Part shown: positions 1 to 64,000 of the stretch, piece after piece
How the letters are laid out: each line of letters begins with the position of its first letter
How positions within the stretch are numbered: the first letter of the stretch is position 1
From: Microbacterium sp.
GTDB taxonomy: Bacteria > Actinomycetota > Actinomycetes > Actinomycetales > Microbacteriaceae
Assembly (NCBI RefSeq): GCF_017305435.1
Contig: NZ_JAFKIP010000007.1
Location: 248,001 to 312,000 of the forward strand
Reading direction: 5' to 3'
DNA: 64,000 bases
Notes under the pieces: generated by a model
What the model saw: only the letters and a program-made list of their open reading frames with translations
Told to the model about the DNA's origin: nothing
The model's database searches: none
Position numbers and translations under genes: made by a program

Positions 1-163
1 CGACGCCCGCGCGGTGCGCGGCCTCGACCCCCAGCACGGCGGCGCCCGGATAGCGCTGCGAACCGGTGCGCACGCCGAGCACCCCTCGGGAATACTTGTC
101 GTCGGAGGCGGTTGGCCTCCTCAGGTGCCCCGCCGCGTCGCGCGCCGTCCAGTCGAGCGTCAT
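1..163 (-). CDS. nnrD: ADP-dependent NAD(P)H-hydrate dehydratase, N-terminal fragment cut by the window edge
   Basis: The reverse strand opens with ATG at 163 and stays open for 54 codons to the window edge. The fragment contains the run DKYSRGVLGVRTGSQRYPG, typical of the YjeF C-terminal (ribokinase-like) domain of NAD(P)H-hydrate dehydratases. These enzymes dehydrate damaged, hydrated NAD(P)H back to NAD(P)H using ADP or ATP, in the cytosol. Only the N-terminus is present, so the catalytic aspartate and nucleotide site cannot be checked. It diverges from the flavin oxidoreductase starting at 237, with 73 bp between them. I am fairly sure of the family and have no information on downstream partners. 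Confidence 0.75.
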   Translation of the reverse strand, partial: MTLDWTARDAAGHLRRPTASDDKYSRGVLGVRTGSQRYPGAAVLGVEAAHRAGV

Positions 164-236
164 GGCGGTCACCCTACTCGCGATCACCGCCGTCGCCCCA
201 CCGTCCCGGCGGCTCGCCCCACCGAATCGGAGCCCC

Positions 237-1316
237 ATGAGCCTGCTGCTGTCCCCCATCGACCTGGGCGGCCTGACGATCCGCAACCGCCTGTGGGTCG
301 CCCCGATGTGCCAATACTCCGCGCAGGACGGCATCCCGAACGACTGGCATCACGTCCACCTCGCGCAGTTCGCCTCCGGCGGCGCGGGCGTCGTCATCGC
401 CGAGGCGACCGCCGTGACGCCCGAGGGCCGGATATCCCCCGAGGACGTCGGGATCTGGAACGACGCGCAGCGGGATGCCTGGGCCCCTATCGCCGCGGCG
501 ATCCGGTCGCGCGGGGCGGTCCCCGGCATCCAGCTCGCGCATGCGGGTCGCAAGGCGTCGACGTGGTCTCCGTTCGCGGGGGCTCGCGGCTCGGTGCCGG
601 AGAGCGAAGGCGGCTGGCAGACGGTCGCGCCGTCGGCGGTGGCGTTCGAGGGGTTCGCCGACCCGACCGCGCTCGACCTTCCGGGCATCGACCTGCTCGT
701 CGACGCGTTCGCCGCCGCCGCCGTCCGCGCCGTGCACGCCGGGTTCGCGCTGCTGGAGCTGCACGCGGCGCACGGCTACCTGCTGCACCAGTTCCTCTCG
801 CCCCTGTCGAACCTGCGCACCGACGAGTACGGCGGGTCGCTCGAGAACCGCGCCCGGCTGCTGCTGCGCATCGTCGACGCCGTCCGCGCGGCAGCGCCCG
901 AGGCCGTCCTGACGGTGCGATTCTCGGCGACCGACTGGGCCGACGGCGGGTGGGATGCCGCGCAGACCGCGACGGTCGCAGGGTGGGCCGCCGAACGGGG
1001 CGCCGTCTTCTTCGACATCTCCAGCGGAGGCCTCGTCGCCCACCAGCAGATCGTCACGGGGCCGGGCTACCAGGTCCACCTGGCGTCCGAGGTCCGCTCG
1101 GCCTCGGGGGTGGCGACCGGCGCCGTCGGCGAGATCACCTCCGGCCCGCAGGCCGAGGCGATCCTCGCGGCGGGCGATGCCGACGTGATCCTCGCGGGTC
1201 GCGAGTGGCTGCGCGACCCGCACTTCGCGCTGCGCGCCGCGACCGAGCTCGGCGAGGCATCCGCGGTCGCATCGGAACTCTGGCCGGTGCAGTACCAGCG
1301 CGCCATCCCCCGCTGA
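237..1316 (+). CDS. Old yellow enzyme family NAD(P)H-dependent flavin oxidoreductase, YqjM type
   Basis: A 359-residue single-domain FMN TIM barrel. YqjM-class ene-reductases reduce activated C=C bonds using NADPH. Visible markers are APMCQYS with Cys25, the redox-tuning cysteine of this class, QLAHAGRK near residues 99-106, and HAAHGYLLHQFLSP at 176-189, whose two histidines bind the substrate carbonyl. The length matches the family. I chose ATG 237 because the family begins right before the LSPIDLGGLTIRNR segment and because GGAG lies just upstream; an upstream in-frame start at 66 would add an unrelated tail. The gene stands alone and converges on the CNNM gene pair. The physiological substrate cannot be told from sequence; detoxification of electrophiles is a common guess. 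Confidence 0.93.
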   Translation: MSLLLSPIDLGGLTIRNRLWVAPMCQYSAQDGIPNDWHHVHLAQFASGGAGVVIAEATAVTPEGRISPEDVGIWNDAQRDAWAPIAAAIRSRGAVPGIQLAHAGRKASTWSPFAGARGSVPESEGGWQTVAPSAVAFEGFADPTALDLPGIDLLVDAFAAAAVRAVHAGFALLELHAAHGYLLHQFLSPLSNLRTDEYGGSLENRARLLLRIVDAVRAAAPEAVLTVRFSATDWADGGWDAAQTATVAGWAAERGAVFFDISSGGLVAHQQIVTGPGYQVHLASEVRSASGVATGAVGEITSGPQAEAILAAGDADVILAGREWLRDPHFALRAATELGEASAVASELWPVQYQRAIPR

Positions 1317-1353
1317 GCGCGCGGAGTTCAGCGGCGTTCGGTTGCCGCTCGGT

Positions 1354-1400
1354 TGTCACTCGCGCCGGGAATCTCGCGGAGGTTCCCGGCGCGAGTGACA
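1354..1400. terminator. Perfect 18-bp inverted repeat between convergent genes
   Basis: The arms TGTCACTCGCGCCGGGAA (1354-1371) and its exact reverse complement (1383-1400) flank an 11-nt loop. It sits in the 105-bp gap between the ends of the oxidoreductase (+) and the CNNM gene (-). No T-run follows on either strand, so it is a plausible bidirectional terminator of the actinobacterial (I-shaped) kind, or a small palindromic repeat. Confidence 0.6.
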
Positions 1401-1421
1401 GGTGAATCGCACTCCCCCGTG

Positions 1422-2477
1422 TCAGAAGCCGCGACGGGTCGCGTCGTGCACTTCGCCGACGAGCTCCTCGATGATGTCCTCGAGGAAGAGCACTCCCGTC
1501 ACCTCGCCCGTCTCGTCGCGCACCTGTGCGAGGTGGCGGCTCGATCGGCGCATGAGGGCGAGCGCGTCCTCGAGATCGGTCGACTCCGCCACCGGCACCA
1601 TGTGGTGGATGCGCTTGGGCTGGATCGGCTCGGCGAGGTTCGCCTCGGCACCCGGGCCCTCGGCGGCGCGCAGCACGTCCTTCAGGTGCACGTAGCCGAG
1701 GGGGGCGCCCGCGGCATCCACGACGACGTAGCGGGAGAAGCCGTGCTTCGCGACGGCGCGCTCGATCTCGTCGGGCGTCGTGCGCTCCGGCAGCGTCACG
1801 AGCTCGCTGAGCGGCACGGCGACATCCCGCGCTTTCTTGTCGGTGAACTCGAGAGCCGCCGTCACAGCCCCCGACGCGTCGTCGAGGACGCCCTCGATGC
1901 GCGACTGCGCGACGATCGTCGCGACCTCGTCGAGCGTGAAGGTGGATGCCGCCTCGTTCTTCGGTTCGACGCGGAAGAGGCGCACGATGTGGTTGGCGAT
2001 CCAGTTGAGCGCGACGATGATCGGGTAGAACACCTTCGACACCCACACGAGCGGAGTCGCGAGCAGCAGCACCGCGCGGTCGGGGAGCGAGAACGCGAGG
2101 TTCTTCGGCACCATCTCGCCGAACACGACGTGCAGGTACGAGACGAGCAGCAGCGCGATCGCGAAGGCGACGCCGCCGATGACGGCCTCGCTCCAACCGG
2201 TGAGCCCCAGCGGACCCTCCAGCAGGTGGTGGATCGCCGGCTCGGAGACGTTCAGGATCAGGAGCGAGCAGATCGTGATGCCGAGCTGACACGTCGCGAG
2301 CATGAGAGTCGCGTGCTCCATGGCGTACAGCGCCGTCTTCGCGGTCTTGGAACCCCGCTCCGCGAGCGGCTCGATCTGCGAGCGCCGCGCGGAGATGACG
2401 GCGAACTCGGCGCCGACGAAGAACGCGTTGAACGCGAGCAGCACGACGAGCCACGCGATTCCGGCCCAATCGTTCAT
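1422..2477 (-). CDS. CNNM (DUF21) / CBS-pair membrane protein lacking the CorC_HlyC domain
   Basis: A 351-residue membrane protein. The N-terminal 130 or so residues form a DUF21/CNNM transmembrane unit with FFVGAEFAVISARRSQ, the family signature after the first helix, and three more hydrophobic stretches. The segment FGEMVPKNLA ends the unit. A CBS-domain pair fills about residues 190-345 and ends at EELVGEVHDATRRGF. Family members are linked to Mg2+/Co2+ transport or efflux and were once called hemolysin C. The start codon overlaps the stop of the upstream paralogue by 4 bp (ATGA), so the two are translationally coupled and may form a heteromer. Unlike its neighbour it stops after the CBS pair, without a CorC_HlyC C-terminal domain. 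The ion is not predictable here. Confidence 0.9.
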   Translation of the reverse strand: MNDWAGIAWLVVLLAFNAFFVGAEFAVISARRSQIEPLAERGSKTAKTALYAMEHATLMLATCQLGITICSLLILNVSEPAIHHLLEGPLGLTGWSEAVIGGVAFAIALLLVSYLHVVFGEMVPKNLAFSLPDRAVLLLATPLVWVSKVFYPIIVALNWIANHIVRLFRVEPKNEAASTFTLDEVATIVAQSRIEGVLDDASGAVTAALEFTDKKARDVAVPLSELVTLPERTTPDEIERAVAKHGFSRYVVVDAAGAPLGYVHLKDVLRAAEGPGAEANLAEPIQPKRIHHMVPVAESTDLEDALALMRRSSRHLAQVRDETGEVTGVLFLEDIIEELVGEVHDATRRGF

Positions 2478-3856
2478 CGGAGCTCACCCCCGTCGGTGGG
2501 CGTGCGTCCGACGGCATCGGCTCCGGCGGTCGCCGCGGCATCCGCGCCGGCATCCGCGCCGTCCGGCAGGGGGTTCGGGGTGAACTTCACCCGGTCGACG
2601 CGGCGGCCGTCCATGCGCACCACCTCGAGCGTGCCGTCCTCGATCACGGCCGTGTCGCCGACGACGGGGATCCGCTCGAGGGTCGACATGAGGAAGCCGC
2701 CGACGGTGTCGTAGACATCGCTCTCGGGCACTCGGATGCCGGTGCGGTCGAGCACCTCGTCGGGGCGCAGCTCCCCCGGGAAGACGACCGCGCCCGCGAC
2801 GCGAACGATGCCGGCGCGTGAGCGGTCGTGCTCATCGAGCACTTCGCCGACGATCTCCTCGACGAGGTCCTCCAGGGTGACGACGCCGGCGGTGCCGCCG
2901 TACTCGTCGACGACGATCGCCATCTGGTAGCCCTTGGCGCGAAGCTCCGCCATGACGGCGTCCAGGTGCACCGCTTCTGGCACGCGCAGCGGTTCCTCGG
3001 CGATCGCGGCGGCAGGGACGTCGGCGCGGCGATCCCGCGGGACGCTCACGGCCTGCTTGAGGTGCGCGATCCCCGTGATGTCGTCCATCGACTCGTCGTA
3101 GACGGGGAAGCGGCTGTGCCCCGTGCGGCGTGCGAGCTGGATGACGTCCTCGACGCTGTCGCCCGCGGCGACCGCATGGATCGAGGGGCGCGGCGTCATG
3201 ACGTCGGCCGTCGTCAGGCGGGCGAAGGTGAGGGTGCGGTTCAGGAGCGACGCGGTGTCCTGCTCGAGTACGCCGGCGCTCGCGGAGCGACGGACGAGGC
3301 TCGACAGCTCGTCGGCCGTGCGGGCTCCGGAGAGCTCCTCCTTCGGCTCGATCCCCATACCGCGCAGGATGCCGTTGGCGCTGCCGTTCAGGACGACGAT
3401 CGCCGGGCGGAACACGGTCGTGAAGCCGACCTGGAACGGCATCACGAGCTTCGCGGTCTGGCGCGGGACCGCGAGTGCGAAGTTCTTCGGCACGAGCTCG
3501 CCGAGGATCATCGAGAACATCGTCGCGACGGAGATCGCGACGACGGTCGAGATCGCGCGACCCGCGGCATCCGGCACCCCCCACGCCGTGAACACGGGAC
3601 TCAGCAGGTTCGACAGCGCCGGCTCCATCGTGTAACCGGTGAGGAGGGTCGTCAGCGTGATGCCCAACTGCGCGCTGGAGAGGTGCGTCGAGGTGATCTT
3701 GAGCGCGGAGATCGTGAGCGACAGTCGCGACTCGCCCGCCGCCTGGCGGGCTTCGAGGTCGGCACGGTCGAGGTTCACGAGCGCGAACTCGCTCGCGACG
3801 AACAGACCGGTCCCGATGGTGAGCAGGAGCCCCACGCCCAACATGACGTAATCCAT
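2474..3856 (-). CDS. CNNM (DUF21) / CBS-pair / CorC_HlyC domain membrane protein
   Basis: A 460-residue paralogue of the next gene with the full three-part layout: a DUF21 membrane unit ([17 protein letters not shown] and [15 protein letters not shown] are visible), two CBS domains around residues 205-335 ending with [12 protein letters not shown], and a CorC_HlyC domain around 350-430. Proteins of this type are implicated in divalent-cation transport or efflux at the cytoplasmic membrane. ATG 3856 is preferred; an adjacent GTG at 3859 would add one residue. It is first of a two-gene operon and overlaps the second gene by 4 bp. A TACAAT box at 3938-3943 on the reverse strand could be its -10 element, with a leader of about 75 nt. 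Confidence 0.92.
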
Positions 3857-3997
3857 CACGCGTCACCCCCGATCAGGGCCGGGGAGGGTCGGTGGGGCGA
3901 TCGTCTGCAACTAGGAGGGTCGTCCATTGTGTGATCGATTGTACGGCACCCCGCCCCCGGGCAGGCCGTGGGTGCGTGGGTGGTGGTCGGCGCCCGC

Positions 3998-4057
3998 GGC
4001 GCCAGACTCCTGTTCGGGCGCCACCGATCGATGGAGCCCGAACAGCGAAGTGGCGCC
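3998..4057 (-). terminator. Nested inverted repeat downstream of guaB1
   Basis: The outer arms GGCGCCA (3998-4004) and TGGCGCC (4051-4057) and inner arms CTGTTCGGGC (4010-4019) and GCCCGAACAG (4036-4045) pair perfectly, with a small internal loop between the two stems. The element lies about 210 bp past the guaB1 stop. It would stop leftward transcription before the CNNM operon; no U-tract follows. Confidence 0.5.
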
Positions 4058-4086
4058 CGCGGATGCGGCGGGAGCCGCGCGCGCCG

Positions 4087-4262
4087 TCACCAGGACGCCG
4101 GCCCGATTCGAAGTCCCGCGGGAGGCCGCGCCCTGCGCGACGGCAAGCCGTCTGCGACGAGGATGTCGTACAGCTCGCGAGCGTCGCGCAATGCCGGGGT
4201 GCAGTTCTCTGCCGCCGCAGCAGGAAAGTGTCGCCCGACGAGCGCGACACAGCGTAACCCCG
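4087..4262 (-). pseudogene. Possible decayed coding remnant, no recognised family
   Basis: The reverse frame directly after guaB1 reads about 58 codons ending VADGLPSRRAR...GPASW and a stop, including PALRDARELYDILV, which looks protein-like. Its upstream continuation runs into guaB1 as out-of-frame shadow, no start codon or ribosome site is visible, and only about three quarters of codons end in G or C, fewer than in real genes here. It may be the 3' end of a lost gene or simply chance. Confidence 0.2.
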
Positions 4263-4267
4263 CGCGG

Positions 4268-5737
4268 CTACCAGCTGACGGGGAGCGCCTTGCCCTCTTC
4301 GTAGCCCGCGGCCGACTGCAGGCCGACGGTCGCGCGCTCGTGGAACTCCGCGACGGTGGATGCCCCGGCATACGTGAACGAGGAGCGCACCCCCGACGTG
4401 ATCATGTCGACGAGGTCCTCGACCGACGGGCGCAGGGGATCGAGGTAGATCTTCGACGACGAGATGCCCTCGGCGAACAGCTCCTTGCGCGCACGCTCGT
4501 ACGGGTCGAGCCGCCCGAACCGGCCGTGCACGGCCTTCGTCGAGGCCATGCCCCACGATTCCTTGTACACACGTCCGCCGTCGTCGGCCTGCAGCTGCCC
4601 GGGCGCCTCGATCGTGCCCGCGAACCAGGACCCGATCATGACGGATGCCGCGCCGGCGGCGAGCGCGAGCGCGACGTCGCGCGGGTAGCGCACCCCGCCG
4701 TCGGCCCACACGTGCGCGCCGAGCTCGGCGGCCGCCTGCGCCGTCTCGAGCACCGCGGAGAACTGCGGGCGCCCGACGGCGGTCATCATGCGGGTCGTGC
4801 ACATCGCGCCGGGCCCGACACCGACCTTGAGGATCGACGCGCCCGCGTTCACGAGGTCGCGCGCCCCCTCGCCGGTGACGATGTTGCCGGCCGCGATGGG
4901 GATGCCGAGTCCGAGGCCTGCCACGGTCTGCAGCGCCCGCAGCATCCCCTCCTGGTGGCCGTGCGCGGTGTCGACGACGAGCACGTCGACACCCGCCGCC
5001 GCGAGGGCGCGAGCCTTCGCGGCGACGTCGCCGTTGATGCCCACGGCGGCGGCGACGATGAGTCGGCCGTCCGCGTCGACGGCCGGGCGGTAGAGGGTCG
5101 AGCGCAGCGCGGTGCGCCGCGAGAGGGTGCCGACGAGATAGCCGTGGTGCAGGACGCACATCGTCTCGGCCTCCGCCGCGACGATGAGGTCGAACGCGTG
5201 CCGCGCACTCTCGACGTCGTCGGCGTCGATCGACGGAGTGCGCCCGCGGGCGAGGTCGCCGAGCTGGGCGTCGGGGAGCGCCGTACCCAGGCGCGCGGCC
5301 GGCACGACGCCCAGGATGTCGTCCACGTGCACGCGCACGGCGGCGCGCTGCGCATCGCCGCGCACGACGACGATGCCGTGCCCCTCGGTGGCGGGCACGA
5401 GCGCCGCCGCGTCGGCGACCGTCGCGGAGGCGGGCAGCACGAGCGGCGTGTCCCACGGGACGGGCTGCTCCTTGACCCAGCGGATGGCGGCGTCGATGTC
5501 CTGCAGCGGCATGTCCTGCGGCAGCACGCCGAGGCCGCCGCGGCGCGCGAGCGCGGCGGCCAGCCGCGGACCGGTCACGGAGTTCATGTTGGATGCCACG
5601 AGCGGAATCGTCGCGGTGGAACCGTCGCCCGGCGACAGGTCGACGTCGAGCCGACTCGTGATCGCCGAGCGGCGCGGCACGAGGAAGACGTCGGAATAGG
5701 TCAGATCGACCGTGGGCTGAGCGCCGGAGAAGTGCAT
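4268..5737 (-). CDS. guaB1: GuaB1-family IMP dehydrogenase-related protein (probable GMP reductase)
   Basis: A 489-residue TIM-barrel enzyme with an inserted CBS-like region at about residues 95-215. The IMPDH/GMPR signature is clear: DTAHGH at 256-261 and GPGAMCTTRMMTAVGRPQ with catalytic Cys313. Actinobacterial GuaB1 proteins were long annotated as IMP dehydrogenases; recent work on the mycobacterial protein assigns GMP reductase activity (GMP to IMP, purine salvage). I place the start at ATG 5737 (MHFSGAQPTVDLTYSDV) rather than 26 codons upstream. The family begins there, and a TACCGT box sits exactly 6 nt before this ATG, fitting a leaderless transcript. It diverges from kgd. Confidence 0.9.
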   Translation of the reverse strand: MHFSGAQPTVDLTYSDVFLVPRRSAITSRLDVDLSPGDGSTATIPLVASNMNSVTGPRLAAALARRGGLGVLPQDMPLQDIDAAIRWVKEQPVPWDTPLVLPASATVADAAALVPATEGHGIVVVRGDAQRAAVRVHVDDILGVVPAARLGTALPDAQLGDLARGRTPSIDADDVESARHAFDLIVAAEAETMCVLHHGYLVGTLSRRTALRSTLYRPAVDADGRLIVAAAVGINGDVAAKARALAAAGVDVLVVDTAHGHQEGMLRALQTVAGLGLGIPIAAGNIVTGEGARDLVNAGASILKVGVGPGAMCTTRMMTAVGRPQFSAVLETAQAAAELGAHVWADGGVRYPRDVALALAAGAASVMIGSWFAGTIEAPGQLQADDGGRVYKESWGMASTKAVHGRFGRLDPYERARKELFAEGISSSKIYLDPLRPSVEDLVDMITSGVRSSFTYAGASTVAEFHERATVGLQSAAGYEEGKALPVSW

Positions 5738-5743
5738 AGGTCT

Positions 5744-5749
5744 ACGGTA
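5744..5749 (-). promoter_or_regulatory. -10 box TACCGT of guaB1, leaderless geometry
   Basis: On the reverse strand TACCGT ends 6 nt before the ATG at 5737. That would put transcription start on the A of the start codon, and no Shine-Dalgarno sequence is present. It supports the short start of guaB1. Confidence 0.5.
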
Positions 5750-5847
5750 CCCACTCACATGCATGGGATACCCTTGATGGCAGTGTGCATACGGCCCGTC
5801 CGCGGTCGGCACCAACTGATCTTCATCGACGAAAGCAGGCGCTAACC

Positions 5848-9579
<3,732 letters not shown>

Positions 9580-9609
9580 CCGTGTGACGCCGGCCGCGCG
9601 CGCCACGCC

Positions 9610-9689
9610 ACGAACTCCGCAGGAACAGACGAACTCCGCACCCGAACACCGGTTCGCGTGCGGAGTTCGTCGCATACTGCGGAGTTCGT
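9610..9689. repeat. Palindromic array of four 12-bp ACGAACTCCGCA boxes
   Basis: Two direct copies of ACGAACTCCGCA (9610-9621 and 9629-9640) are followed by two inverted copies (9659-9670 and 9678-9689). Start-to-start spacing is 19 nt in each pair. The inner pair extends to a 14-bp stem (9628-9641 with 9658-9671), enclosing a small CGAAC/GTTCG hairpin. It lies between the convergent ends of kgd and glpD, so termination is the simplest role. Its box symmetry is more elaborate than a plain terminator. Confidence 0.7.
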
Positions 9690-9705
9690 CTCCGGCGGCG
9701 GGCGC

Positions 9706-13560: not shown

Positions 13561-13611
13561 TCGCACCTCGACGCTGCTCGAGGAGAGCTCCCGCCGACCG
13601 AGGAGGACGCC

Positions 13612-14514: not shown

Positions 14515-14538
14515 GCCGCACGCGGCGGAGGCGTCCGC

Positions 14539-51443: not shown

Positions 51444-51452
51444 CTCCAGGTC

Positions 51453-52487: not shown

Positions 52488-52508
52488 GTTCGGTCGTCGC
52501 CGGCGCGA

Positions 52509-54067: not shown

Positions 54068-54074
54068 GGGGATG

Positions 54075-54080
54075 AGTCTA
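54075..54080 (-). promoter_or_regulatory. -10 box TAGACT of wzm-wzt
   Basis: Reverse-strand TAGACT ends 7 nt before GTG 54067. A second TAGACT, on the forward strand at 54140-54145, may serve the GlfT2-like gene. Confidence 0.45.
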
Positions 54081-54254
54081 TGAGAGCGAGCAGAGTGGCG
54101 CCGGGATGGCAGAGACAGAGAAGTGACGACTCGCGCGACTAGACTGCTGATCTGGCTCGTCCGAACGCGATTCCGCCGACGTGGATCGGGGTGCGGAGTC
54201 GGATACCGCTGTGGCTTCCTCGACGGACCCGGCCTCCGAACCTTGGAGTGATAC

Positions 54255-56186
54255 GTGACTCATATTCTTCAGAACACTGTGCTTCCCGTCGATCGCGATC
54301 CGGATCTGTTGCCCCTGTACGTCGACCCGGAGACGTGGACATCCATTGACGAAGAGCCGGTTCGCGTATCGAACCGCGCTCAGCTGGGCAACATCCTGGG
54401 GCGAACAAAAGCCAGGATCGTCGCCGGCCGACGCGTCTCGTTCGGCACGTACTTCAACGCCTTCCCCGCGTCCTACTGGCAGCACTGGACGACGGTGCGC
54501 GACGTGACGCTTTCGGTGCGCACCAGTGGCCCCGCGACGATCCTCGTCTATCGCTCCACCGGAAGCGGCGTGCGCCAGCGAATCGACACCCGAGAAGTGG
54601 ACGGCGAGGCCACCACCACATTCGGCCTCACGCTCAATCAGTACAGCGATGGGGGCTGGATCTGGTTCGACGTCGCCGCCGACGAGAAGTCCGCGGTGTT
54701 CGAAGGCGCAACATGGTCGACGGAGGCGGAGCCGCGCAGGAACGGCAAGGCGACCATCGGCATCACGACCTACAACAAACCCGACTACTGCATCGGCACG
54801 TTGCGGGCGCTGGCCGCGAGTCCCGAAGTGCTTCCGCTGCTCGACCGCGTTTATGTGATCGACCAGGGCGATCGCCTCGTTTCGGCAGAGCCGGGATACG
54901 ACGATGTCGCCAGCGCTCTCGGTGAGACCCTGCAGATCGTGACTCAGCCGAACCTCGGCGGCTCGGGCGGGTTCGCGCGGGCGATGACGGAGACACTACA
55001 ACGACCCGACAGCGACTTCGTCCAGTTGTTGGACGACGACGTCCGCATCGAGCCGGAGTCGATCCGGCGGTCGATCATGTTCGCTCGCTTCGCGACCATC
55101 CCGACCATCGTCGGCGCGCACATGTTCGATCTGCTCGATCGGCCCAAGCTGCACGCGTGGGCAGAGGTCGTGGACGAGGTGCCCTTCATGTGGCGCACCC
55201 TTAACCAGGAACGAATGCCACACGATTTCTCGGTCGCGAACCTGCGTCAGTCGCCCTTGCTGCATTCGCGGCTCGACGCCGACTACAACGGGTGGTGGAT
55301 GTGCCTGATCCCCAAAGAAGTCGTGCGCGAGGTTGGTCTGGCGCTCCCCGCGTTCATCAAGTGGGATGACGCGGAGTATTCGTTGCGGGCGCGCGAGGCA
55401 GGATTCCCCACGGTTTCCGTTCCGGGCGTCGCTCTGTGGCATGTGTCGTGGGTGGGCAAGGATGACTCGATCGACTGGCAGGCCTACTTCCACGCGCGCA
55501 ATCGCATCGTCGCAGGGCTCCTGCATTCCCGCGCACCGCTAGGCGGGGCGCTGATCAAGCACAGCCGCCGCCTGGATCTCAAGCACCTCATGATGATGCA
55601 GTACTACCCCGTCGCCCTCCGCCACCTTGCGCTGCGCGACGTCCTGTCGGGGCCGGCGCATATGAGGGCGAACCTCGCGACCGCTATGCCCGAGGCTCGA
55701 GCCATGTCTGCAGGATTCCCGGAGACCGTCGTGCACCGCGATACGGAAACCCCGATGCGCTCACGACGAGGCCGCCAAGTGTTCCCGCGGTTCAAGCGTC
55801 ACCAGTACGACAGCCCGACCGGCATGCGCCTGCGCTGGTTCACGGCATCCACTCTGCTCTCCCACTGGTTGCACGCGCCTCGCCCCGAGAACGTCATGCA
55901 GCCCGAGGTGGAATTCGGGAAGGACGACGCGCATTGGTGGCGCGTCCCTCTCTTCGATAGCGCCCTCGTCAACGCCGCGGATGGCTCGGGTAAGAACGTG
56001 TACACCCGCGATCGCGCACAGTTCCGTCGGATGCTGATCGACAGCATCCGCTTGCACCGCGCACTGAGGAGGCGGTGGCCGAAGCTGGCCACCGAGTATC
56101 GCGCAGCGCTCCCGGAGCTCGTCTCTGCCGAAGCATGGGCTCGGACATTCGCCGTTCAGACCGACGAAGGAAGATTGGCGCCGTAG
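54255..56186 (+). CDS. GlfT2-like galactofuranan polymerase (GT2)
   Basis: A 643-residue enzyme with an N-terminal beta domain (about 1-150), a GT-A domain (about 160-420) and a helical C-terminus, the layout of mycobacterial GlfT2 (about 637 residues). The metal motif is LLDDDVR (Asp260-262). WDDAEYSLRAREAGF gives Asp371/Asp372 and ALWHVSW gives His396. From memory the mycobacterial enzyme uses Asp371/372 and His396 too. DWQAYFHARNRIVAGLLHS is another hallmark. It extends a beta-(1-5)/(1-6) galactofuranan. GTG 54255 follows a GGAG site. Codon use is slightly less GC-extreme than in the left part of the window. Confidence 0.88.
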   Translation: MTHILQNTVLPVDRDPDLLPLYVDPETWTSIDEEPVRVSNRAQLGNILGRTKARIVAGRRVSFGTYFNAFPASYWQHWTTVRDVTLSVRTSGPATILVYRSTGSGVRQRIDTREVDGEATTTFGLTLNQYSDGGWIWFDVAADEKSAVFEGATWSTEAEPRRNGKATIGITTYNKPDYCIGTLRALAASPEVLPLLDRVYVIDQGDRLVSAEPGYDDVASALGETLQIVTQPNLGGSGGFARAMTETLQRPDSDFVQLLDDDVRIEPESIRRSIMFARFATIPTIVGAHMFDLLDRPKLHAWAEVVDEVPFMWRTLNQERMPHDFSVANLRQSPLLHSRLDADYNGWWMCLIPKEVVREVGLALPAFIKWDDAEYSLRAREAGFPTVSVPGVALWHVSWVGKDDSIDWQAYFHARNRIVAGLLHSRAPLGGALIKHSRRLDLKHLMMMQYYPVALRHLALRDVLSGPAHMRANLATAMPEARAMSAGFPETVVHRDTETPMRSRRGRQVFPRFKRHQYDSPTGMRLRWFTASTLLSHWLHAPRPENVMQPEVEFGKDDAHWWRVPLFDSALVNAADGSGKNVYTRDRAQFRRMLIDSIRLHRALRRRWPKLATEYRAALPELVSAEAWARTFAVQTDEGRLAP

Positions 56187-56220
56187 GCCACGCAACGTCA
56201 GCGGTCTGGGCATCCGTCTT

Positions 56221-56239
56221 CGTCTCGGCCGTTGAGACG
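56221..56239. terminator. Small hairpin between convergent glfT2-like gene and glf
   Basis: CGTCTC (56221-56226) pairs with GAGACG (56234-56239) around a 7-nt loop, in the 100-bp gap between the two gene ends. A weak candidate. Confidence 0.35.
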
Positions 56240-56286
56240 GACCCCGAAGTGGCCTGCGTCCGCCACGGTGATTACGTAGAGCGGAA

Positions 56287-57432
<1,146 letters not shown>

Positions 57433-57472
57433 TCACTCGTTGTTGTGGATGGCGTGCCCGATCCGAGGGATG

Positions 57473-57501
57473 ATTCTATCCGCCGAGAACTTCCGTAACC
57501 T
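57473..57501. promoter_or_regulatory. Divergent -10 boxes of glf and the GT2 gene
   Basis: TAGAAT on the reverse strand (57473-57478) precedes glf. TAACCT on the forward strand (57496-57501) ends 9 nt before ATG 57511. Confidence 0.4.
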
Positions 57502-57510
57502 GGATGAGCC

Positions 57511-58401
57511 ATGACTCTCGAGATCTTCGTGCCCTTCTGGGGCGACCCCGGCCTGTTGTACGAAACCGTCGACTCCGTGCGAGCACAGCGCAACCCGGAC
57601 TGGAGGCTGGTGATCATCGACGACTGCTATCCCGACGAGTCGGTCGCCGAGCGCTTCGCGACGGAGACCGACCCCCGCATCACCTACGTGCGCAACAGCA
57701 CCAATCTGGGAATCACGGAGAACTACCGCGAGGCGATCCGTAGGGCAACCGAGCCGCATATCGCGATCCTGGGATGCGACGACCTGCTGCACCCGAACTA
57801 CGTCGACACGATCGCTCACACGATCGCCGTGGTTCCGGGCGCCGACGTGATCCAGCCCGGCGTGGACGTCATCGACGAGCACGGCACCGTGATCCGCCCA
57901 CTCGCCGATCGCGTCAAGCAGGGACTGCTCGCCCCGCACGGAAGCTCGGGGATCACTATGCTCACCGGAGAGCACATGGCCACGAGCCTCATCCGTGGCG
58001 ACTGGCTGTACTGGCCCTCCCTGGCATTTCGCACCGAGACCCTCCAGCGCATCGACTTCCGAGAGGGCCTGCCGATCATCCAGGATCTCGCCCTGCTCAT
58101 GGACATCGCGTTCGACGGCGGAACGCTCGCTTACAACCCGACGCTTTCCTTCTCGTACCGACGGCATGGCGGCAGCGCGTCGCAGAAGACGCTGCTGGAC
58201 GGTCGGCGCTTCCGCGACGAGCGTACCTATTACGCCGAGGCGCGGCGGCTCGCCGCCGCGCAGGGATGGTCTCGCACCGCTCGCACGGCCCGGGCGCGCG
58301 TCATGTCGCGTCTGCACGCCGTCACCGAGCTGCCCGGCGTCCTCCGGAGAGGAACGCGCTCCGGGATAAGATCGACGCTGGCGCACATCACCTCCCTCTG
58401 A
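57511..58401 (+). CDS. Glycosyltransferase family 2 protein
   Basis: A 296-residue GT-A enzyme. The fold starts MTLEIFVPFWGDPGLLYETVD (first 20 form the first strand and helix). RLVIIDDCYPDESVAERF and the metal motif ILGCDDLLHPNY (about 88-99) are clear. The Cys before the Asp pair is unusual but tolerated. The C-terminal basic helix suggests membrane contact. Sugar and acceptor are unknown. It heads an apparent three-gene run with the epimerase and acyltransferase genes (34-bp gap, then overlap), so it probably acts on a modified sugar made by them. Confidence 0.85.
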   Translation: MTLEIFVPFWGDPGLLYETVDSVRAQRNPDWRLVIIDDCYPDESVAERFATETDPRITYVRNSTNLGITENYREAIRRATEPHIAILGCDDLLHPNYVDTIAHTIAVVPGADVIQPGVDVIDEHGTVIRPLADRVKQGLLAPHGSSGITMLTGEHMATSLIRGDWLYWPSLAFRTETLQRIDFREGLPIIQDLALLMDIAFDGGTLAYNPTLSFSYRRHGGSASQKTLLDGRRFRDERTYYAEARRLAAAQGWSRTARTARARVMSRLHAVTELPGVLRRGTRSGIRSTLAHITSL

Positions 58402-58435
58402 CCCGCTCGGGGTCACCCGCAGCCCAGGAGTCGTC

Positions 58436-59572
58436 ATGGTCGAACACGTCCTCATCACCGGCGGTGCCGGCTTCATCGGCACCCGTCTCGCCCGACGCCT
58501 GGTCGCCGACGGTCACACCGTAACAGTGCTCGACGCGCTCATCCCCCAGGTACACGGAGACGACCCCGAGCGCACCTCACCTCTGTTGCGCTCACTCGAC
58601 GGCATCGCGGAAGTCGTCCGCGGCACCGTGACCTCGGCAGATGATCTGAGGCGTGCTCTCGCGGGCACCACGGCGATCGTTCACCTGGCCGCCGAGACCG
58701 GCACAGGTCAGTCGATGTATGAGATCGAGCGATACGTACAGACGAACGTGGGCGGCACCGCGACTCTGTTGGACGTACTCGCGTCCGGCGATTTCCCGGT
58801 GCGTCGACTCGTGATCGCGTCTTCGCGATCGATCTACGGCGAGGGCTCGTACCGCACCGAAGACGGCCGGATCGTGCATCCGCCGCATCGCGCCGACGCC
58901 GACATGGCCGCCGGCGACTTCGACGTGCACCTGAGCGGCGAAGGACCGCTCACGCTCATCGCAACGAACGAAGATGCCACGCTGCACCCGTCGAGCGTAT
59001 ACGGCATCACCAAGCAGATGCAGGAGTCACTGATCATGACAGTCGCGCCGACGATCGGAATCGAGCCCGTCGCGCTCCGCTATCAGAATGTGTACGGCCC
59101 CGGCCAGTCCCTCAAGAACCCGTACACCGGCATCCTCTCCATCTTCTCCACCCTCATCCGCCAAGGTAAAGAGATCAACATCTTCGAGGACGGGCAGGAA
59201 AGCCGCGACTTCGTCTACATCGATGACGTCGCCGAAGCCACCTTCCTGGCCACGACCCGCGCGGAGGCAGCGGGGCACGTGTTCAACGTCGGCTCCGGAG
59301 TCGCCACGACCGTGCTGGATGTCGTTCACGCGCTGTTCGCCGCGTACGGCACCGAGGTAGCCACGCGCGTCTCCGGGAACTACCGCCTTGGAGACATCCG
59401 CCACAACGTCGCCGACACGTCACGGCTGCGAGACGTGCTCGGATTCACCCCCGTTGTCGCCTTCGCCGACGGCGTGCGTGAGTTCGCCCAGTGGGTCCTG
59501 AGTGAGCCCGTCGAGGGCGATGCCTATCAGCGCTCATTGGACGAGATGGCGGCGCGGAACCTGCTCAAGTGA
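58436..59572 (+). CDS. NAD-dependent sugar-nucleotide epimerase/dehydratase (SDR)
   Basis: A 378-residue extended SDR with the NAD motif GGAGFIG (9-15), catalytic SSR around 129-131 and YGITK (Tyr189, Lys193). LRYQNVYGPGQSLKNPYTG and SRDFVYIDDVAEA (about 254-266) are typical of nucleotide-sugar 4-epimerases. A long insert before the active site (about 140-185) recalls dTDP-L-rhamnose or dTDP-6-deoxytalose 4-epimerases, but the substrate is open. AGGAG precedes ATG 58436. It is coupled to the acyltransferase gene by an overlap at the stop. Confidence 0.88.
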   Translation: MVEHVLITGGAGFIGTRLARRLVADGHTVTVLDALIPQVHGDDPERTSPLLRSLDGIAEVVRGTVTSADDLRRALAGTTAIVHLAAETGTGQSMYEIERYVQTNVGGTATLLDVLASGDFPVRRLVIASSRSIYGEGSYRTEDGRIVHPPHRADADMAAGDFDVHLSGEGPLTLIATNEDATLHPSSVYGITKQMQESLIMTVAPTIGIEPVALRYQNVYGPGQSLKNPYTGILSIFSTLIRQGKEINIFEDGQESRDFVYIDDVAEATFLATTRAEAAGHVFNVGSGVATTVLDVVHALFAAYGTEVATRVSGNYRLGDIRHNVADTSRLRDVLGFTPVVAFADGVREFAQWVLSEPVEGDAYQRSLDEMAARNLLK

Positions 59573-60669
59573 TGGCCGTCAGAGGTTCCTGGATCGATCC
59601 GAGGAACAACTCGCTGAACCTCTTGCGGCTCGTGATGGCCGCGATGGTGTTGTTTCACCATGTCATTCCCCTCACGGGTCGCGGCGAGGGCGTCGAGCTC
59701 ACGCCGGGCGAGTCGGTCGGCGGATGGGCGGTGTTCGGCTTCTTCATGATCTCCGGCTACCTGATCACCGGGGCGCGCCTCCGCTCGGACGGTGGGCGTT
59801 ATCTGATCAACCGCATCGCGCGACTGTTCCCCGCATTTTTCTTCGTGAACGTCCTCACGGCGTTCCTGCTCGCACCTATCGCGTTCAGCGTTCAGAACGG
59901 GTCGCTCGACGGCTTCCTTTCCACGCCGAACACCCCCGCCAGCTACGTGATCGGCAACGGCTGGCTCAAAATGGTGGACTACTCGGTGGCGGGCACCCTC
60001 GCCAACGTTCCTTATCCGTTTGCGTGGAACGGCTCACTGTGGAGCCTGTACTACGAGTTCACCGCCTATCTGCTGGTCGGGTTCTTCCTGGTGCTCCCTG
60101 CTGCGCGCCGGAGCGTGTGGCCGATGCTTCTTGCGTTCGTAGCCACGTGCGCGCTCAAGATCTGGAACGACGCGTTCGTCGTCGCCCTCAGCGGGATCGG
60201 CGCCGACGTCGTGCAGTTCGGCCGTCTTCTGCCATTCTTCTTCGGCGGCGCCCTGGTTTTCATGATCCGGGAGCGGTACGGCGAGAGGTTCACGCTGACA
60301 TGGTGGGGAGCTCTTCTCTGCGCGGTGGGCACGGTTGCCCTCGTCCTCGTGTTTCCGGCCTACGGGGGTCAGCTCGCCGCACCGTTGCTCACGTACGTCC
60401 TGTTGTGGATCGGTGCACGCCTGCCGTCCCCGCAGCTCTTCCAAGTCCACGACTTCTCGTACGGCGTCTACGTCTGGGGCTTCCCGTTGACGCAGCTCCT
60501 GTGCCTGTGGGGATGGGCCGGGGCACCGCTTCCGCTCTTCTTCGCCGTGCTCGTCCCGTCGACCTTCGTGATCGCAGCACTGTCCTGGTTCTTCGTCGAA
60601 CGTCCCACCATCCGGTGGTCGCGGGGCAAGCGCCATCCGTTCGGAGACCTCCGCTCGGAAGCGCGCTGA
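59569..60669 (+). CDS. Acyltransferase 3 family membrane protein (OafA/YrhL-like)
   Basis: A 366-residue protein with about ten spans. NSLNLLRLVMAAMVLFHHVIPL carries the conserved Arg and the His pair of the family near the end of span 1 (core RLVMAAMVLFHHVIPL). WSLYYEFTAYLLVGFF is another marker. These enzymes move acetyl or other acyl groups onto sugars at the membrane. GTG 59569 overlaps the epimerase stop by 4 bp; ATG 59572 is an equal alternative with a 1-base overlap. It probably O-acylates the surface polysaccharide of this cluster. Confidence 0.9.
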   Translation: MMAVRGSWIDPRNNSLNLLRLVMAAMVLFHHVIPLTGRGEGVELTPGESVGGWAVFGFFMISGYLITGARLRSDGGRYLINRIARLFPAFFFVNVLTAFLLAPIAFSVQNGSLDGFLSTPNTPASYVIGNGWLKMVDYSVAGTLANVPYPFAWNGSLWSLYYEFTAYLLVGFFLVLPAARRSVWPMLLAFVATCALKIWNDAFVVALSGIGADVVQFGRLLPFFFGGALVFMIRERYGERFTLTWWGALLCAVGTVALVLVFPAYGGQLAAPLLTYVLLWIGARLPSPQLFQVHDFSYGVYVWGFPLTQLLCLWGWAGAPLPLFFAVLVPSTFVIAALSWFFVERPTIRWSRGKRHPFGDLRSEAR

Positions 60670-60680
60670 ATCCGACTCGG

Positions 60681-61649
60681 TCAGCCCAGCGCGTACTGCC
60701 GTTTCACGTAGGCGGTGAACAGCCGGCGGTAGATGTCGGGCGCCGCCTTGAGGAGCAGTGCGCCCGCGCCCAGGACGGGCTTTCGGGCAAGGGTCGTCGC
60801 GATCATCGTCGGTGAGATGAGAGCGCGACACCTTGTCATCACTTCGCGCGCCGCGAGCGTATCTCGGGAACGCATCGCCGACTGTGCCGTCAGCATCAGG
60901 AACAGCGTCCGGCACACCATGAAAGCTCGTCGGCGGCTCGGCTCGGCGCCGAGCCACGGCCCCAGCTCGGACTCGGCGAACCCGAGGGCACGCTCCGTCT
61001 CGGCCACCTCGGGCACTCGCCCCCAGGTGAGGGAGCCGGCGGCGACGTAGTACTGCACGAGCGCGTCCGGAACCGATCGCACGCGCGCGACGCGTGAGAG
61101 CGCCACCACCCCCACGACGTGGTCTTCGAAGCGATGGATGTCGACCGGGTAAGTGATCCCGTCGAACGCAGCCCGCCGGATCATCTTGTCCCAAGGAAAG
61201 GGCGACACGTCCCCGACGAGCATCGCCGTGGCCGCCTCGTCGCCCGTCATCTCGCCGAGCCGCGTCGAGTGCGCCGTACGCCGCGTGCCGTCCGGCAGGA
61301 CCACCGTGCGGCCGCAGATCACCGCGTCGACCTCCGATGCCGCCTCGTGCATTCGGGTCAGCAACCCGGGCTCCCACGCATCGTCAGCGTCGAGGAAGGC
61401 GATGAAATCTCCCTGCGCGGCGGCCAGGGCCGTGTTGCGCGCCGCCGAGATCCCCCGATTCCTTTCGTGGGCGATCACTCGCACTCGTGCGTCGCGGATG
61501 CCCTCCACGACCTCTCGCGACGAGTCCGCTGAGCCGTCGTCGACCACGATCACCTCGAAATCGACGTCGGTCTGTGCAAGAACGGACTGGACGGCGCGCG
61601 AGACCGACGAGGCCGCGTTGAACATTGGTATCAGGACGCTGGTACGCAT
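60681..61649 (-). CDS. Glycosyltransferase family 2 protein
   Basis: A 322-residue GT-A enzyme opening MRTSVLIPMFNAASSVSRAV, with FEVIVVDDGSADSSREVVEG near 33, NRGISAARNTALAAAQGDFI near 65 and the metal motif FLDADDAWEPG near 86-96. PWDKMIRRAAF near 155 and the HRFEDH motif complete the acceptor side. The C-terminus is basic and amphipathic. ATG 61649 shares one base with the stop of the flippase gene; a GTG one codon upstream would give a 4-base overlap. It is the last gene of a four-gene leftward run. The sugar is not predictable. Confidence 0.9.
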   Translation of the reverse strand: MRTSVLIPMFNAASSVSRAVQSVLAQTDVDFEVIVVDDGSADSSREVVEGIRDARVRVIAHERNRGISAARNTALAAAQGDFIAFLDADDAWEPGLLTRMHEAASEVDAVICGRTVVLPDGTRRTAHSTRLGEMTGDEAATAMLVGDVSPFPWDKMIRRAAFDGITYPVDIHRFEDHVVGVVALSRVARVRSVPDALVQYYVAAGSLTWGRVPEVAETERALGFAESELGPWLGAEPSRRRAFMVCRTLFLMLTAQSAMRSRDTLAAREVMTRCRALISPTMIATTLARKPVLGAGALLLKAAPDIYRRLFTAYVKRQYALG

Positions 61650-62902
61650 CACGTCGCCGTCGCTCGCGACTCGCGGCGACGCAGCGCGCGGAGGACGAAG
61701 ATGAAGTGGAACGCAGACCCCACCATCGGGCCGATCATCAGGGCAAGGACCGTACGCGTCGCGAGATCAAGCGGCATGAGCATGATGGCGGTCGACACGG
61801 CGAAGGCGAGGTACCACCCGACCGTGTTGACCGCATGCTCGTCGAGCGCGAGCGCGATCGCGCCGCCGAGAACGAGCAGCGCGAGGAATGCCGCCGCGGC
61901 CACGAGCAACGCGAGGATGGCAGGAGTATTCGCGTAGGCGGGGCCGAACACGAGCGCCATGAGCCACGGGCCGACCAGCGCCGCGAGTCCCCCACCCACC
62001 AGTGCTACGGCTACGACGAGGAGCAGCAGGCGCAGCAAAGAGGATCGCGCGCGCTCCGGATGCTCAACGAATGCGGCGATGACCATTGACTGGAACGCCG
62101 TGATCGGGATCAGCAGCGGCGCACGCGTCATCGACACCGCCATCACGACGGGGGCGGCACTCGCGTAGGTCGAAGGATCGGTGGTGGCGCTCATCAGAAG
62201 GGGGAACCCGGTCACGAGCAGGGCGTTGGCGCCCGAGGCCGCCATGGCATTGAGGATTCGCCCGATGAGGGCACCTCGACCGATGGCCACGCGCAGACTC
62301 CACACCGTACGCCACCCGGGCATCGATAGCGTCGCGGCGACCCACGTGACGGCGCCGGCAGCCGCAGCCGTCGCGAAGCCATCCACGCTCCAGCCTGCGA
62401 CAGCTCCCACCACTGCAAGCGCCAGGCGCACGACGGACTCGCCGGCCGTGAGTCCGGCGAAGGCGCGCCAGCGTCCGAGCCCGGCGAATGTCCCGACGGC
62501 GGCGACATGACCGGCGTACAGGAACGCGGCTGCTCCCATCACCACGACAGAGAAGATGAGGTTCGTGTCGTCCACCAGGACGACGCCCCAGAGCGGGGTG
62601 AGCGCCAGCACGACCAGCGCGGCCGCCGCGCCGACGATCAGGGCCGAGGCAAGCGGCGACGTCTTCCGATCGTGGTCTCCCGTGCGCATTGAGTCAGCGC
62701 GCACGGCACGGGTGACCTCGTTCTGGATCCCCGACAGCACCGCGAACAGAGCGAAGAGTGCGGCCCAGAAGGTGAGGAAGGCGGTGTTCTGCTCGGTGGT
62801 CAGAGATCTCGCCGTGATCGCGAGAAAGGCCACTCCGGACAGTGCGGCCACCGCCGCGCCCACGGCGACGAGGGCCGCGGACGCGCCGGCTCGCTCAGCC
62901 AT
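61649..62902 (-). CDS. Polysaccharide flippase-like membrane protein (MOP/Wzx superfamily)
   Basis: A 417-residue, about twelve-span protein. Its spans are strongly Ala/Val-rich; the N-terminal half contains TEQNTAFLTFWAALFALFAV and the C-terminal half LALDEHAVNTVGWYLAFA. Size and hydropathy suit lipid-linked oligosaccharide flippases, but there are no strict motifs in this superfamily, so the call is from topology and context. ATG 62902 lies 8 bp inside the upstream DUF2304 gene. It is placed between a DUF2304/GT2 pair and another GT2, as in repeat-unit polysaccharide loci. Confidence 0.75.
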   Translation of the reverse strand: MAERAGASAALVAVGAAVAALSGVAFLAITARSLTTEQNTAFLTFWAALFALFAVLSGIQNEVTRAVRADSMRTGDHDRKTSPLASALIVGAAAALVVLALTPLWGVVLVDDTNLIFSVVVMGAAAFLYAGHVAAVGTFAGLGRWRAFAGLTAGESVVRLALAVVGAVAGWSVDGFATAAAAGAVTWVAATLSMPGWRTVWSLRVAIGRGALIGRILNAMAASGANALLVTGFPLLMSATTDPSTYASAAPVVMAVSMTRAPLLIPITAFQSMVIAAFVEHPERARSSLLRLLLLVVAVALVGGGLAALVGPWLMALVFGPAYANTPAILALLVAAAAFLALLVLGGAIALALDEHAVNTVGWYLAFAVSTAIMLMPLDLATRTVLALMIGPMVGSAFHFIFVLRALRRRESRATAT

Positions 62903-63293
62903 CGGTGTCGGCGTGCGGGCGGTGGCCGCCGCTCTCACCCTCGAGGGCATCGAGCCTGCGCTCCAGCTGCTCGTGCTTCGCCCGCAGGATCGCGTGTTCT
63001 TCGGCGGAGCGCCGGATCTCGTCCTCCGCCTGGGAGAGCTCCCACGAGAGGTGGAGCGCGACGCCGAGCAGCAGGACGATCGCCAGCGCAAACAGCAGGT
63101 TCGCGGGCACCTGCACGCCGAACAGGTCGGTGATGCCCAGCAGCAACTGGGGGAACAGTCCCAGGACCAGCACGGCCAGGCCGATGACCAGCCACAACAC
63201 CGCGTATTTCTCGCGCAGACGCCGCGTCAGCAGCATCCACATGACGACGACGAGAATCAGGATCGCGAGAAGGATGCCGAAGAAGACGATCAT
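62895..63293 (-). CDS. DUF2304 family membrane protein
   Basis: A 132-residue protein with three spans (about 2-22, 33-50, 65-84) and a C-terminal cytosolic coiled coil (SQAEDEIRRSAEEHAILRAK...RLDALEG). REKYAVLWLVIGLAVL is the family core. DUF2304 proteins nearly always accompany a DPM1-like GT2 and probably scaffold it at the membrane. That is the case here: the GT2 gene overlaps it by 4 bp upstream. It overlaps the flippase gene by 8 bp downstream. Confidence 0.88.
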   Translation of the reverse strand: MIVFFGILLAILILVVVMWMLLTRRLREKYAVLWLVIGLAVLVLGLFPQLLLGITDLFGVQVPANLLFALAIVLLLGVALHLSWELSQAEDEIRRSAEEHAILRAKHEQLERRLDALEGESGGHRPHADTDG

Positions 63294-64000
63294 GCTCGCG
63301 TCTCCTGCAGTTCCTCCGGCGCCGTACTTCGCGTCCGGCGCATGAGCGCGAGTCCCAAGGCGAATACCGAGCGCAGCAGGTACTTCGCCGACCCGATCGG
63401 GCCCTGGCTCGGGGTGCCGTGCCTGCGGGGCCGCATCGCGACCGGCACCTGGGTGACGGTGAGACCGGCGTGGCAGGCGGCGACCAGAGAATCAAGGGTG
63501 TCACCCAAGTACTCCGCGGGATAGTAGCGCACGTACTGGTCGATCGCGCGCGCGCCGGCAGCGCGGAAGCCGCTCGTGACATCGGTCAACCGCGTCTTGG
63601 CGACGCGCGAGAGGACGGACGCGAGGAAGCTCATCGCCCACTTCCGCGGACCACGCACTTCGTAGTCGCCGACATCGCTGAAGCGTGCACCGATGGAGAT
63701 ATCCGCCGTTTCCAGGCCCGCCAGGACTCGTTCGATGTCCGCGGGGTTGTGCTGGCCGTCGGCATCCACTTGGATCGCTCGCAGGTACCCCTCGCGCTGT
63801 GCGTAGGTGTAGCCCGTGCGCATCGCGCCGCCCACCCCGAGGTTGAACGGCAGACTGAGCACAGTCGCGCCCGCATCGGCGGCTACCTTCGCGGTCGCGT
63901 CGGTCGACCCGTCATCGACGACGGCGACATGGTAACGCGGGTCCGCATCGAGGATCTCATGAACGGTGGTGCCGACGTTGCGTTCCTCGTTCCAGGCGGG
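63290..64000 (-). CDS. DPM1-like glycosyltransferase family 2 protein, N-terminus outside the window
   Basis: The open frame enters from the window edge (PAWNEERNVGTTVHEILDA) and ends at 63290, giving 236 visible residues. VAVVDDGSTDATAKVAADAG, LGVGGAMRTGYTYAQREGY and the catalytic VDADGQHNPADIERVL mark a polyprenyl-phosphate-glycosyltransferase type GT2. It would transfer a sugar from a nucleotide to polyprenyl phosphate at the inner membrane face. It is the first visible gene of a tightly overlapping run with DUF2304, flippase and another GT2. The start codon is not in view, though only a few residues are missing by comparison with family members. Confidence 0.9.
   Translation of the reverse strand, partial: PAWNEERNVGTTVHEILDADPRYHVAVVDDGSTDATAKVAADAGATVLSLPFNLGVGGAMRTGYTYAQREGYLRAIQVDADGQHNPADIERVLAGLETADISIGARFSDVGDYEVRGPRKWAMSFLASVLSRVAKTRLTDVTSGFRAAGARAIDQYVRYYPAEYLGDTLDSLVAACHAGLTVTQVPVAMRPRRHGTPSQGPIGSAKYLLRSVFALGLALMRRTRSTAPEELQETRA

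Follow-up and report, generated by a model that had tools for sequence, protein, structure and literature searches.

A short GGATGCC word with differing forms among Microbacteriaceae genomes: a possible mark of self DNA

In 64,000 nucleotides of DNA (the window; contig 5, positions 248001-312000) from a Microbacterium-like genome, the heptamer GGATGCC is in large excess in both orientations. The excess is genome-wide, it is driven through synonymous codons, and in some related species the dominant word is another one with the same GGAT core. We give a probability of about 0.5 to the reading that GGATGCC marks self DNA, being read at import or recombination and spreading through biased exchange. 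The window has exactly 64 copies of GGATGCC and 61 of its complement GGCATCC, 125 in both orientations together. An earlier inspection of the letters alone (the sequence-only reading) had counted about 61 and 57, so the excess it reported is confirmed and was understated. Markov models of order 1, 2, 3, 4 and 5 predict 15, 17, 24, 60 and 94 copies on both strands, respectively. The word ranks first among all heptamers of the window at orders 1 to 4, and seventh at order 5, where the model already contains the hexamers of the motif and takes up the signal. Eleven copies are wholly intergenic and one is partly so, with intergenic DNA making up 8.3% of the bases; gene borders, here and throughout, come from a simple gene finder made for this analysis.

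The excess extends over the whole genome to which the window belongs (G000; 3,498,495 bases in 10 contigs). It contains 3,416 forward and 3,380 reverse copies, 6,796 in total or about one per 515 bases on average, compared with 148 and 180 copies (total 328) of the reversed pattern used as a control. This is an excess of about 20-fold, and the near equality of orientations described by the sequence-only reading holds in the genome as in the window. For detailed analyses we used 364 kb of DNA from this genome together with the window (the G000 sample), in which 733 copies were found versus 137 expected under a Markov model of order 3 (5.3-fold). Four motif-poor stretches (L006, L017, L018 and L019) were excluded from this comparison and from the spacing, codon and dialect sets, and are reported separately.

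The word acts at the level of DNA and not of protein. When synonymous codons are shuffled with the proteins and the codon usage left unchanged, 146 copies are expected in the sampled coding DNA, and 631 are observed. The two outcomes that the sequence-only reading had named as refuting its observation, an expectation near the observed count and an absence of excess outside the window, did not occur. Synonymous codons are bent to spell the word: aspartate is encoded by GAT at 270 of 319 sites (85%) in the context G_GCC versus 70 of 303 (23%) in [ACT]_GCC, and alanine by GCA at 177 of 213 sites (83%) in the context G_TCC versus 1,021 of 15,445 (6.6%) overall. In the latter context both GCC and GCG are displaced by GCA, with 13 and 22 remaining. 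The same steering is seen in relatives with other words: GAT is used at 43 of 53 sites in G_GCG versus 12 of 44 in [ACT]_GCG in genome G034, and at 13 of 23 sites in G_GGC versus 1 of 58 in comparison contexts in genome G031. The density of the word is 2.19 copies per kb between genes (97 in 44.3 kb) and 1.99 per kb in coding DNA (636 in 319.7 kb).

These results bear on a candidate listed by the sequence-only reading, that the word is a by-product of codon-pair preference or of context-dependent mutation bias. Such an origin would agree with the fact that most of the 631 coding copies fall into three classes of frame and orientation (xxG-GAT-GCC, 270; xxG-GCA-TCC, 177; GGC-ATC-C, 145). Codon usage and protein composition are ruled out as the cause by the shuffle. 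Codon-pair preference is insufficient because intergenic copies are equally dense, and a single C-to-T process, or one-step deamination, is ruled out because GCA takes the place of two alanine codons, GCC and GCG. The low density on mobile DNA, the variation of the dominant word between genomes of one genus and the orientation-dependent spacing in G000, all described below, likewise speak against a by-product. We reject this candidate as very improbable.

Of the eight ways to extend GGATGCC by one base, seven are among the enriched octamers of the G000 sample, at 3.0 to 7.4 fold, the unlisted one being GGATGCCC. The base after the word is G in 70% of copies, and G is found two and three bases further on in 58% and 53%. 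One-step neighbours are depleted in the coding DNA of G000 (GGACGCC 0.49, GGAGGCC 0.44, GGATACC 0.24 and GGATGGC 0.52 of expectation), first-base variants stand at 1.02-1.15 (CGATGCC 1.15) and last-base variants at 0.94-1.37. The highest ratio of any one-mismatch form in this genome is 1.37, and many are about 1 or lower. In genomes G154 and G034, variants at the last two bases reach 1.4-3.75 and most others are near or below 1.4.

At the scale of the chromosome the word is neutral in orientation. We detected no strand polarity in the G000 sample, in which 370 of the 733 copies lie on the locally G-rich strand, local GC skew having been taken as the guide without location of the origin. The statistic (f-r)^2/(f+r), calculated from forward and reverse counts, has a median of 0.29 and a mean of 0.68 in those 44 of the genus's 59 genomes that carry 3,000 copies or more, a median of 0.53 and a mean of 1.79 in the other 15, and a median of 1.54 and a mean of 1.84 in outgroups from the order (18 of 39 used). 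Locally, the variance of the strand difference in G000 is 0.28 of the binomial value per 10 kb and 0.17 per 20 kb, or 0.38, 0.30 and 0.19 per 5, 10 and 20 kb when the motif-poor stretches are included. The 10-kb value is the lowest among 83 frequent heptamers, and the next four contain palindromes. With no strand polarity and RecC found in 0 of 299 family genomes, the proposals that the word is a replication-oriented motif or a RecBCD Chi site are unsupported.

The word is reduced on mobile and foreign DNA. The motif-poor stretches of the own genome carry 0.20 (L019), 0.45 (L017), 0.60 (L006) and 0.70 (L018) copies per kb. L018 (contig 9, 1-20000) is recognizable as plasmid-type DNA from its 99.5% identity, over its length of 20 kb, to the Microbacterium sediminis plasmid NZ_CP038257.1; its genes include a P-type (metal) ATPase and cytochrome genes. 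L017 holds a resolvase and a pyridine-nucleotide oxidoreductase, and L006 a P-type ATPase and a weak ArdC-like match. Three stretches of Microbacterium plasmids have 0.18, 0.42 and 0.52 copies per kb, and one Microbacterium phage has 0.30. All eight stand at 0.9-2.5 times the order-3 expectation, compared with 5.3 times in the other samples of the own genome. On the mobile DNA examined, a small sample compared with the own genome and not with the chromosomes of the plasmid and phage hosts, GGATGCC is 3- to 10-fold rarer, and to call it absent would be too strong.

The survey of relatives covered 299 genomes of the family, with 85 genera tallied and 59 genomes from the genus of the window, and dialect words were counted in 75 whole genomes. 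GGATGCC is lowest in two genomes of genus g81 (G148, 229 copies; G217, 223), where it is at about background (reversed pattern 245 and 248), and highest, at 7,429 copies, in a genome of genus g87 (G321). Within the genus it ranges from 697 copies (G038, 44% complete) to the 6,796 of G000, with a median of 4,375. GGATCC reaches 6,067 copies in G042, 6,168 in G056 and 5,698 in G131, versus 257-2,256 in the other 72 of the 75 genomes; G042 and G056 belong to the same genus as the window. GGATGGC reaches 3,546 in G031 and 3,158 in G037 and is at most 1,191 in the rest, and GGATGCG reaches 5,668 (G034), 4,726 (G053), 3,271 (G197), 2,899 (G004) and 2,797 (G188), with at most 2,495 in the others. Where another word dominates, GGATGCC counts are 812 (G042), 828 (G056), 1,273 (G031), 1,706 (G037), 1,940 (G034) and 2,127 (G053). 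Both GGATGCC (2,384) and GGATGCG (2,899) are carried by G004. The dominant words share the GGAT core and differ between related species; GGATCC is palindromic, and GGATGCC, GGATGGC and GGATGCG are not.

In samples from members low in GGATGCC other words ranked highest. Codon shuffling supports GGATGGC in G031, GGATGCG in G034 and G197, GGATCC in G042 and G131, CGGATGC in G188 and GCAGGAT in G246. Two further candidates, GGAGGCG in G206 and CCGGATC in G193, failed this control, and GGAGGCC in G273 was weak in it. CCGGATC is a top word by the Markov test in samples from both Leucobacter (L028) and G193 (L125-L129); after codon shuffling it stands at 23 versus 6.5 in Leucobacter and lies outside the top words of G193. 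In G025 the top word is CCGGATG, with 34 copies versus 6.5 in one 20-kb stretch (L238), a comparison made without the codon control. No clear GGAT-type word was found in samples of 20-100 kb each from G114, G121, G142, G144, G194, G217, G228, G260 and G318, nor in samples of this size from the small genomes G107, G110 and G127, which lacked gene calls for codon shuffling.

Driven through synonymous codons, neutral in orientation at chromosome scale, rare on the foreign DNA examined and replaced by sister words in relatives, GGATGCC resembles in its behaviour the uptake sequences of Neisseria. A self-DNA word of this type, with dialects, was missing from the options of the sequence-only reading and is the one best supported here, at the even odds given above. 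During the import of DNA, or the recombination after it, a sequence-reading step would favour DNA carrying the word, so that exchanged fragments with the word would be copied into the population more often. The word would then accumulate in both orientations wherever coding permits, and stay rare in newly arrived DNA. A change in the specificity of the reader in a lineage would lead to rewriting of the genome to a new dialect (GGATGCC, GGATGGC, GGATGCG or GGATCC). The genes comEA (with SLBB and HHH domains) and comEC adjoin in the own genome, and the route may pass through ComEA and ComEC.

The DNA uptake sequences (DUS) and uptake signal sequences (USS) of Neisseriaceae and Pasteurellaceae offer the closest comparison. 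Variants in Neisseriaceae are described as dialects over a conserved core, with inverted pairs common (PMC3630211); another account reports uptake sequences as non-palindromic, without orientation bias and with about 10% in inverted repeats (PMC1939737), and a density of about one per 1,000 bases is given for USS (PMC7811141). GGATGCC resembles them in its thousands of copies within and between genes, its lack of orientation bias, its low density in the foreign DNA examined and its lineage dialects over a shared core, here GGAT. Unlike them, it has a high-GC Gram-positive host, a 7-base core at about one per 515 bases and one palindromic dialect, and it is known here from sequence alone. A limited search of open-licence PubMed Central articles, in which GGCATCC was not searched, found no earlier report of the GGATGCC word, no actinobacterial uptake sequence, no report of uptake-sequence transformation in Microbacterium and, judged by title, no methylome study of the Microbacteriaceae bearing on the word.

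Several observations weigh against a self-DNA mark used in uptake. The palindromic GGATCC dialect and the spacing of same-orientation copies in G000 fit uptake least well. Same-orientation pairs within 300 bp number 96 in this genome versus 162.6 +/- 11.8 expected when word use is permuted among sites with the same dipeptide, and orientation-free uptake does not predict such avoidance. Most one-mismatch words are not enriched in G000. Fifteen genomes of the genus have below 3,000 copies of GGATGCC; six of them have a clear replacement among the words counted, and none was found among these words in G002, G022, G028, G038, G039, G049 and G050. A small contig of G154 (contig 2, 29,928 bases) is rich in the word, with 55 copies in the 20 kb sampled (L114, 1-20000); this sample is richer on average than those of the main contig. 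ComEC is non-discriminating because it is near-universal: 94 of 98 genomes have it, among them outgroups from the order in which the excess is small. Matches to the PilT family pass the cut-off in 145 of 299 genomes with no link to the word seen by eye, the own genome has none that pass it, and the ComEC and PilT comparisons identified no uptake receptor. The absence of PilT is no bar to uptake, since DNA uptake through Flp pili is described for the actinobacterium Micrococcus luteus (PMC6370729, PMC4322843).

The spacing in G000 is compatible with a Chi-like word read on one strand by AdnAB, the helicase-nuclease of Actinobacteria, during resection of double-strand breaks, with selection or biased recombination spacing the word separately for each orientation. 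Same-orientation pairs are too few within both 300 and 700 bp and opposite pairs are not, the latter numbering 185 within 300 bp versus 155.9 +/- 12.5 expected. In G000 synonymous sites spell the word less often when a same-orientation copy lies within 300 bp (138 of 183 versus 309 of 349, p=1.6e-4; p=0.0016 in a wider site set), and no such drop is seen at that distance from an opposite copy (250 of 297 versus 197 of 235, p=1). The low density on mobile DNA is compatible with this explanation. All 27 sampled genomes have at least two matches to the PF12705 nuclease domain, mostly neighbouring, which we read as AdnAB-like. The match is split in two in G033, G031 and G042, and G031 has a lone match plus a pair, one with an in-frame TGA; these may represent either sequence errors or a further type of AdnAB within the genus.

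The effect is not clearly repeated elsewhere. In the second genus examined (G154), there are 77 same-orientation pairs within 300 bp versus 82 expected, and 100 opposite pairs versus 84. In seven other genome sets pooled, a same-orientation copy nearby has no effect on use (329 of 495 versus 502 of 748, p=0.85), and use is higher near an opposite copy (396 of 560 versus 435 of 683, p=0.009). A separate pooled count of pairs in genomes other than G000 still includes GGAGGCG of G206, CCGGATC of G193, GGAGGCC of G273 and CAGGAT of G246. Same-orientation spacing is a strong property of G000 and unproven in general. GGATGCC is like Chi in being a short oriented word, low on mobile DNA and spaced by orientation in G000; unlike Chi, it has no strand polarity, it occurs in a family without RecC matches and several words exist within one genus. 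AdnAB-type nuclease genes are also found in genomes without a clear word. We know of no Chi response of mycobacterial AdnAB and of no Chi-like word for this enzyme class, so that such a word would, as far as we are aware, be the first. We consider this explanation unlikely.

The sequence-only reading had also proposed a methylation-related motif. A solo methyltransferase would mark the word, methyl-linked repair would create and keep it, and the dialects would follow the specificity of the enzyme, as suggested by the highly iterated HIP1 of cyanobacteria, for which alternate words with matching methyltransferases are described in some species (PMC4390886). GGATGCC shares with HIP1 and its alternates the frequent iteration of a short word and its replacement by different words in certain relatives. 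The GGATCC dialect is palindromic, and the depletion of GGACGCC, GGAGGCC and GGATACC agrees with such a process. However, GGATGCC itself is non-palindromic, first-base neighbours such as CGATGCC are undepleted, and no methyltransferase varying with the word was found in the two classes examined, D12 (Dam/FokI-type) and PF01555 (beta-class). D12 enzymes occur in only 6 of 54 genomes. PF01555 matches (E 2.3e-38 or better) occur in 50 of 54, and G058 has none yet carries 3,351 copies of GGATGCC.

We compared ten sequences of the PF01555 enzyme, from seven genomes with differing words (G000, G031, G034, G042, G056, G131 and G188) and three without a clear word (G142, G194 and G318). The segment VDREPYMAPGLV..EK...GK.PTDVWWHTIV, which we take to lie where beta-class enzymes usually hold the recognition domain, is nearly unvarying among them. 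The conserved enzyme is unlikely to set the dialect because this presumed recognition segment is nearly the same across words, and the proposal of a methylation mark is weakened to the point where we consider it less probable still than a Chi-like word. From species to species, the low-complexity linker of the enzyme differs widely in length (L254-L280, L285-L287). The linker was considered as the dialect determinant, since G042 and G056, both with GGATCC, share a match span, and was dropped in view of its low complexity and the constant recognition segment. G025, the genome of the same genus with CCGGATG as top word, has no copy of the conserved methyltransferase.

Within the window, genes of either direction contain copies, and others lie between genes or form hairpin-like inverted pairs, as the sequence-only reading had noted. 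Two inverted pairs are intergenic: GGATGCC-TC-GGCATCC at 33438..33453 (motifs at 33438 and 33447), as part of a longer GC-rich stem in the gap where two genes converge, and GGATGCC-GT-GGCATCC at 39268..39283 (motifs at 39268 and 39277), within a longer GC-rich stem just after a gene end. Three pairs lie within genes: GGATGCC-TC-GGCATCC at 9763..9778, the abutting pair GGATGCCGGCATCC at 17385..17398 and a pair with an 11-base gap at 43864..43888. A tandem direct pair, GGATGCCGGATGCC, occupies motif positions 20155..20168 on the + strand. Close convergent pairs number 16 in the G000 sample, 4 intergenic and 12 within genes. Single intergenic copies are found on the + strand at 15018..15024, 17988..17994 (immediately 5' of a predicted start codon at 17995) and 41866..41872, and on the - strand at 25857..25863, 42341..42347, 46729..46735 and 56209..56215.

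The last of these copies is inside a motif-poor stretch at 53001..64000, which has 0.82 copies per kb and 66.0% GC versus 2.19 copies per kb and 71.6% GC in the motif-rich part at 1..53000, a boundary that was chosen after looking. It encodes nine proteins, of which seven match polysaccharide-type families (a galactofuranosyltransferase, a UDP-galactopyranose mutase, three further glycosyltransferases, one of them of family 2, an epimerase and an acyltransferase), one matches DUF2304 and one has no match. This polysaccharide-type cluster was probably acquired later than its surroundings.

The placement of the organism as Microbacterium-like follows from the SecA protein encoded in the window. 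Its identity is 83-87% with the SecA of five named Microbacterium records and no more than 77% with other records among the best 80. For codon shuffling, 34 of these 80 loci were taken, about 22 kb each, and two of the 34 (L030 and L067) were without gene calls. GGATGCC is in excess in Microbacterium sp. ACRRU (34 versus 8.1) and Leifsonia sp. ALI-44-B (22 versus 4.6), support is not clear in Microbacterium oxydans (10 versus 5.5), and a Clavibacter record has CGGATCC in place of GGATGCC (19 versus 5.4). Outside the family, the same procedure gives CCGATGC (38) and CATCGGC (40) versus about 15-16 in Demequina sp. NBRC 110057 (L042), and CGGCATA (14 versus 2.9) in a Tetrasphaera metagenome-assembled genome (L037). 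Further words in other families are possible.

Where a word shapes thousands of synonymous codons and varies among the species of one genus, a strong process of reading DNA has left its trace. We propose tentatively, at slightly less than even odds, that the Microbacteriaceae, which are Gram-positive bacteria, possess a self-DNA code: an uptake-type system lying outside the Neisseriaceae and Pasteurellaceae. At least four dialects, one of them palindromic, would occur in one genus. Such a code would imply rapid change of the protein that reads the sequence, each change being followed by rewriting across the genome. The dialect switches within a genus represented by many genomes make the spread of such words, by molecular drive or by selection, open to testing. 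If the word is a mark for import or recombination, it could be used to raise the transformation of genetically awkward Actinobacteria, and its absence would flag islands and plasmids. If it governs these processes, the word would help to set the partners of DNA exchange in a large family, and species barriers might be predicted from sequence.

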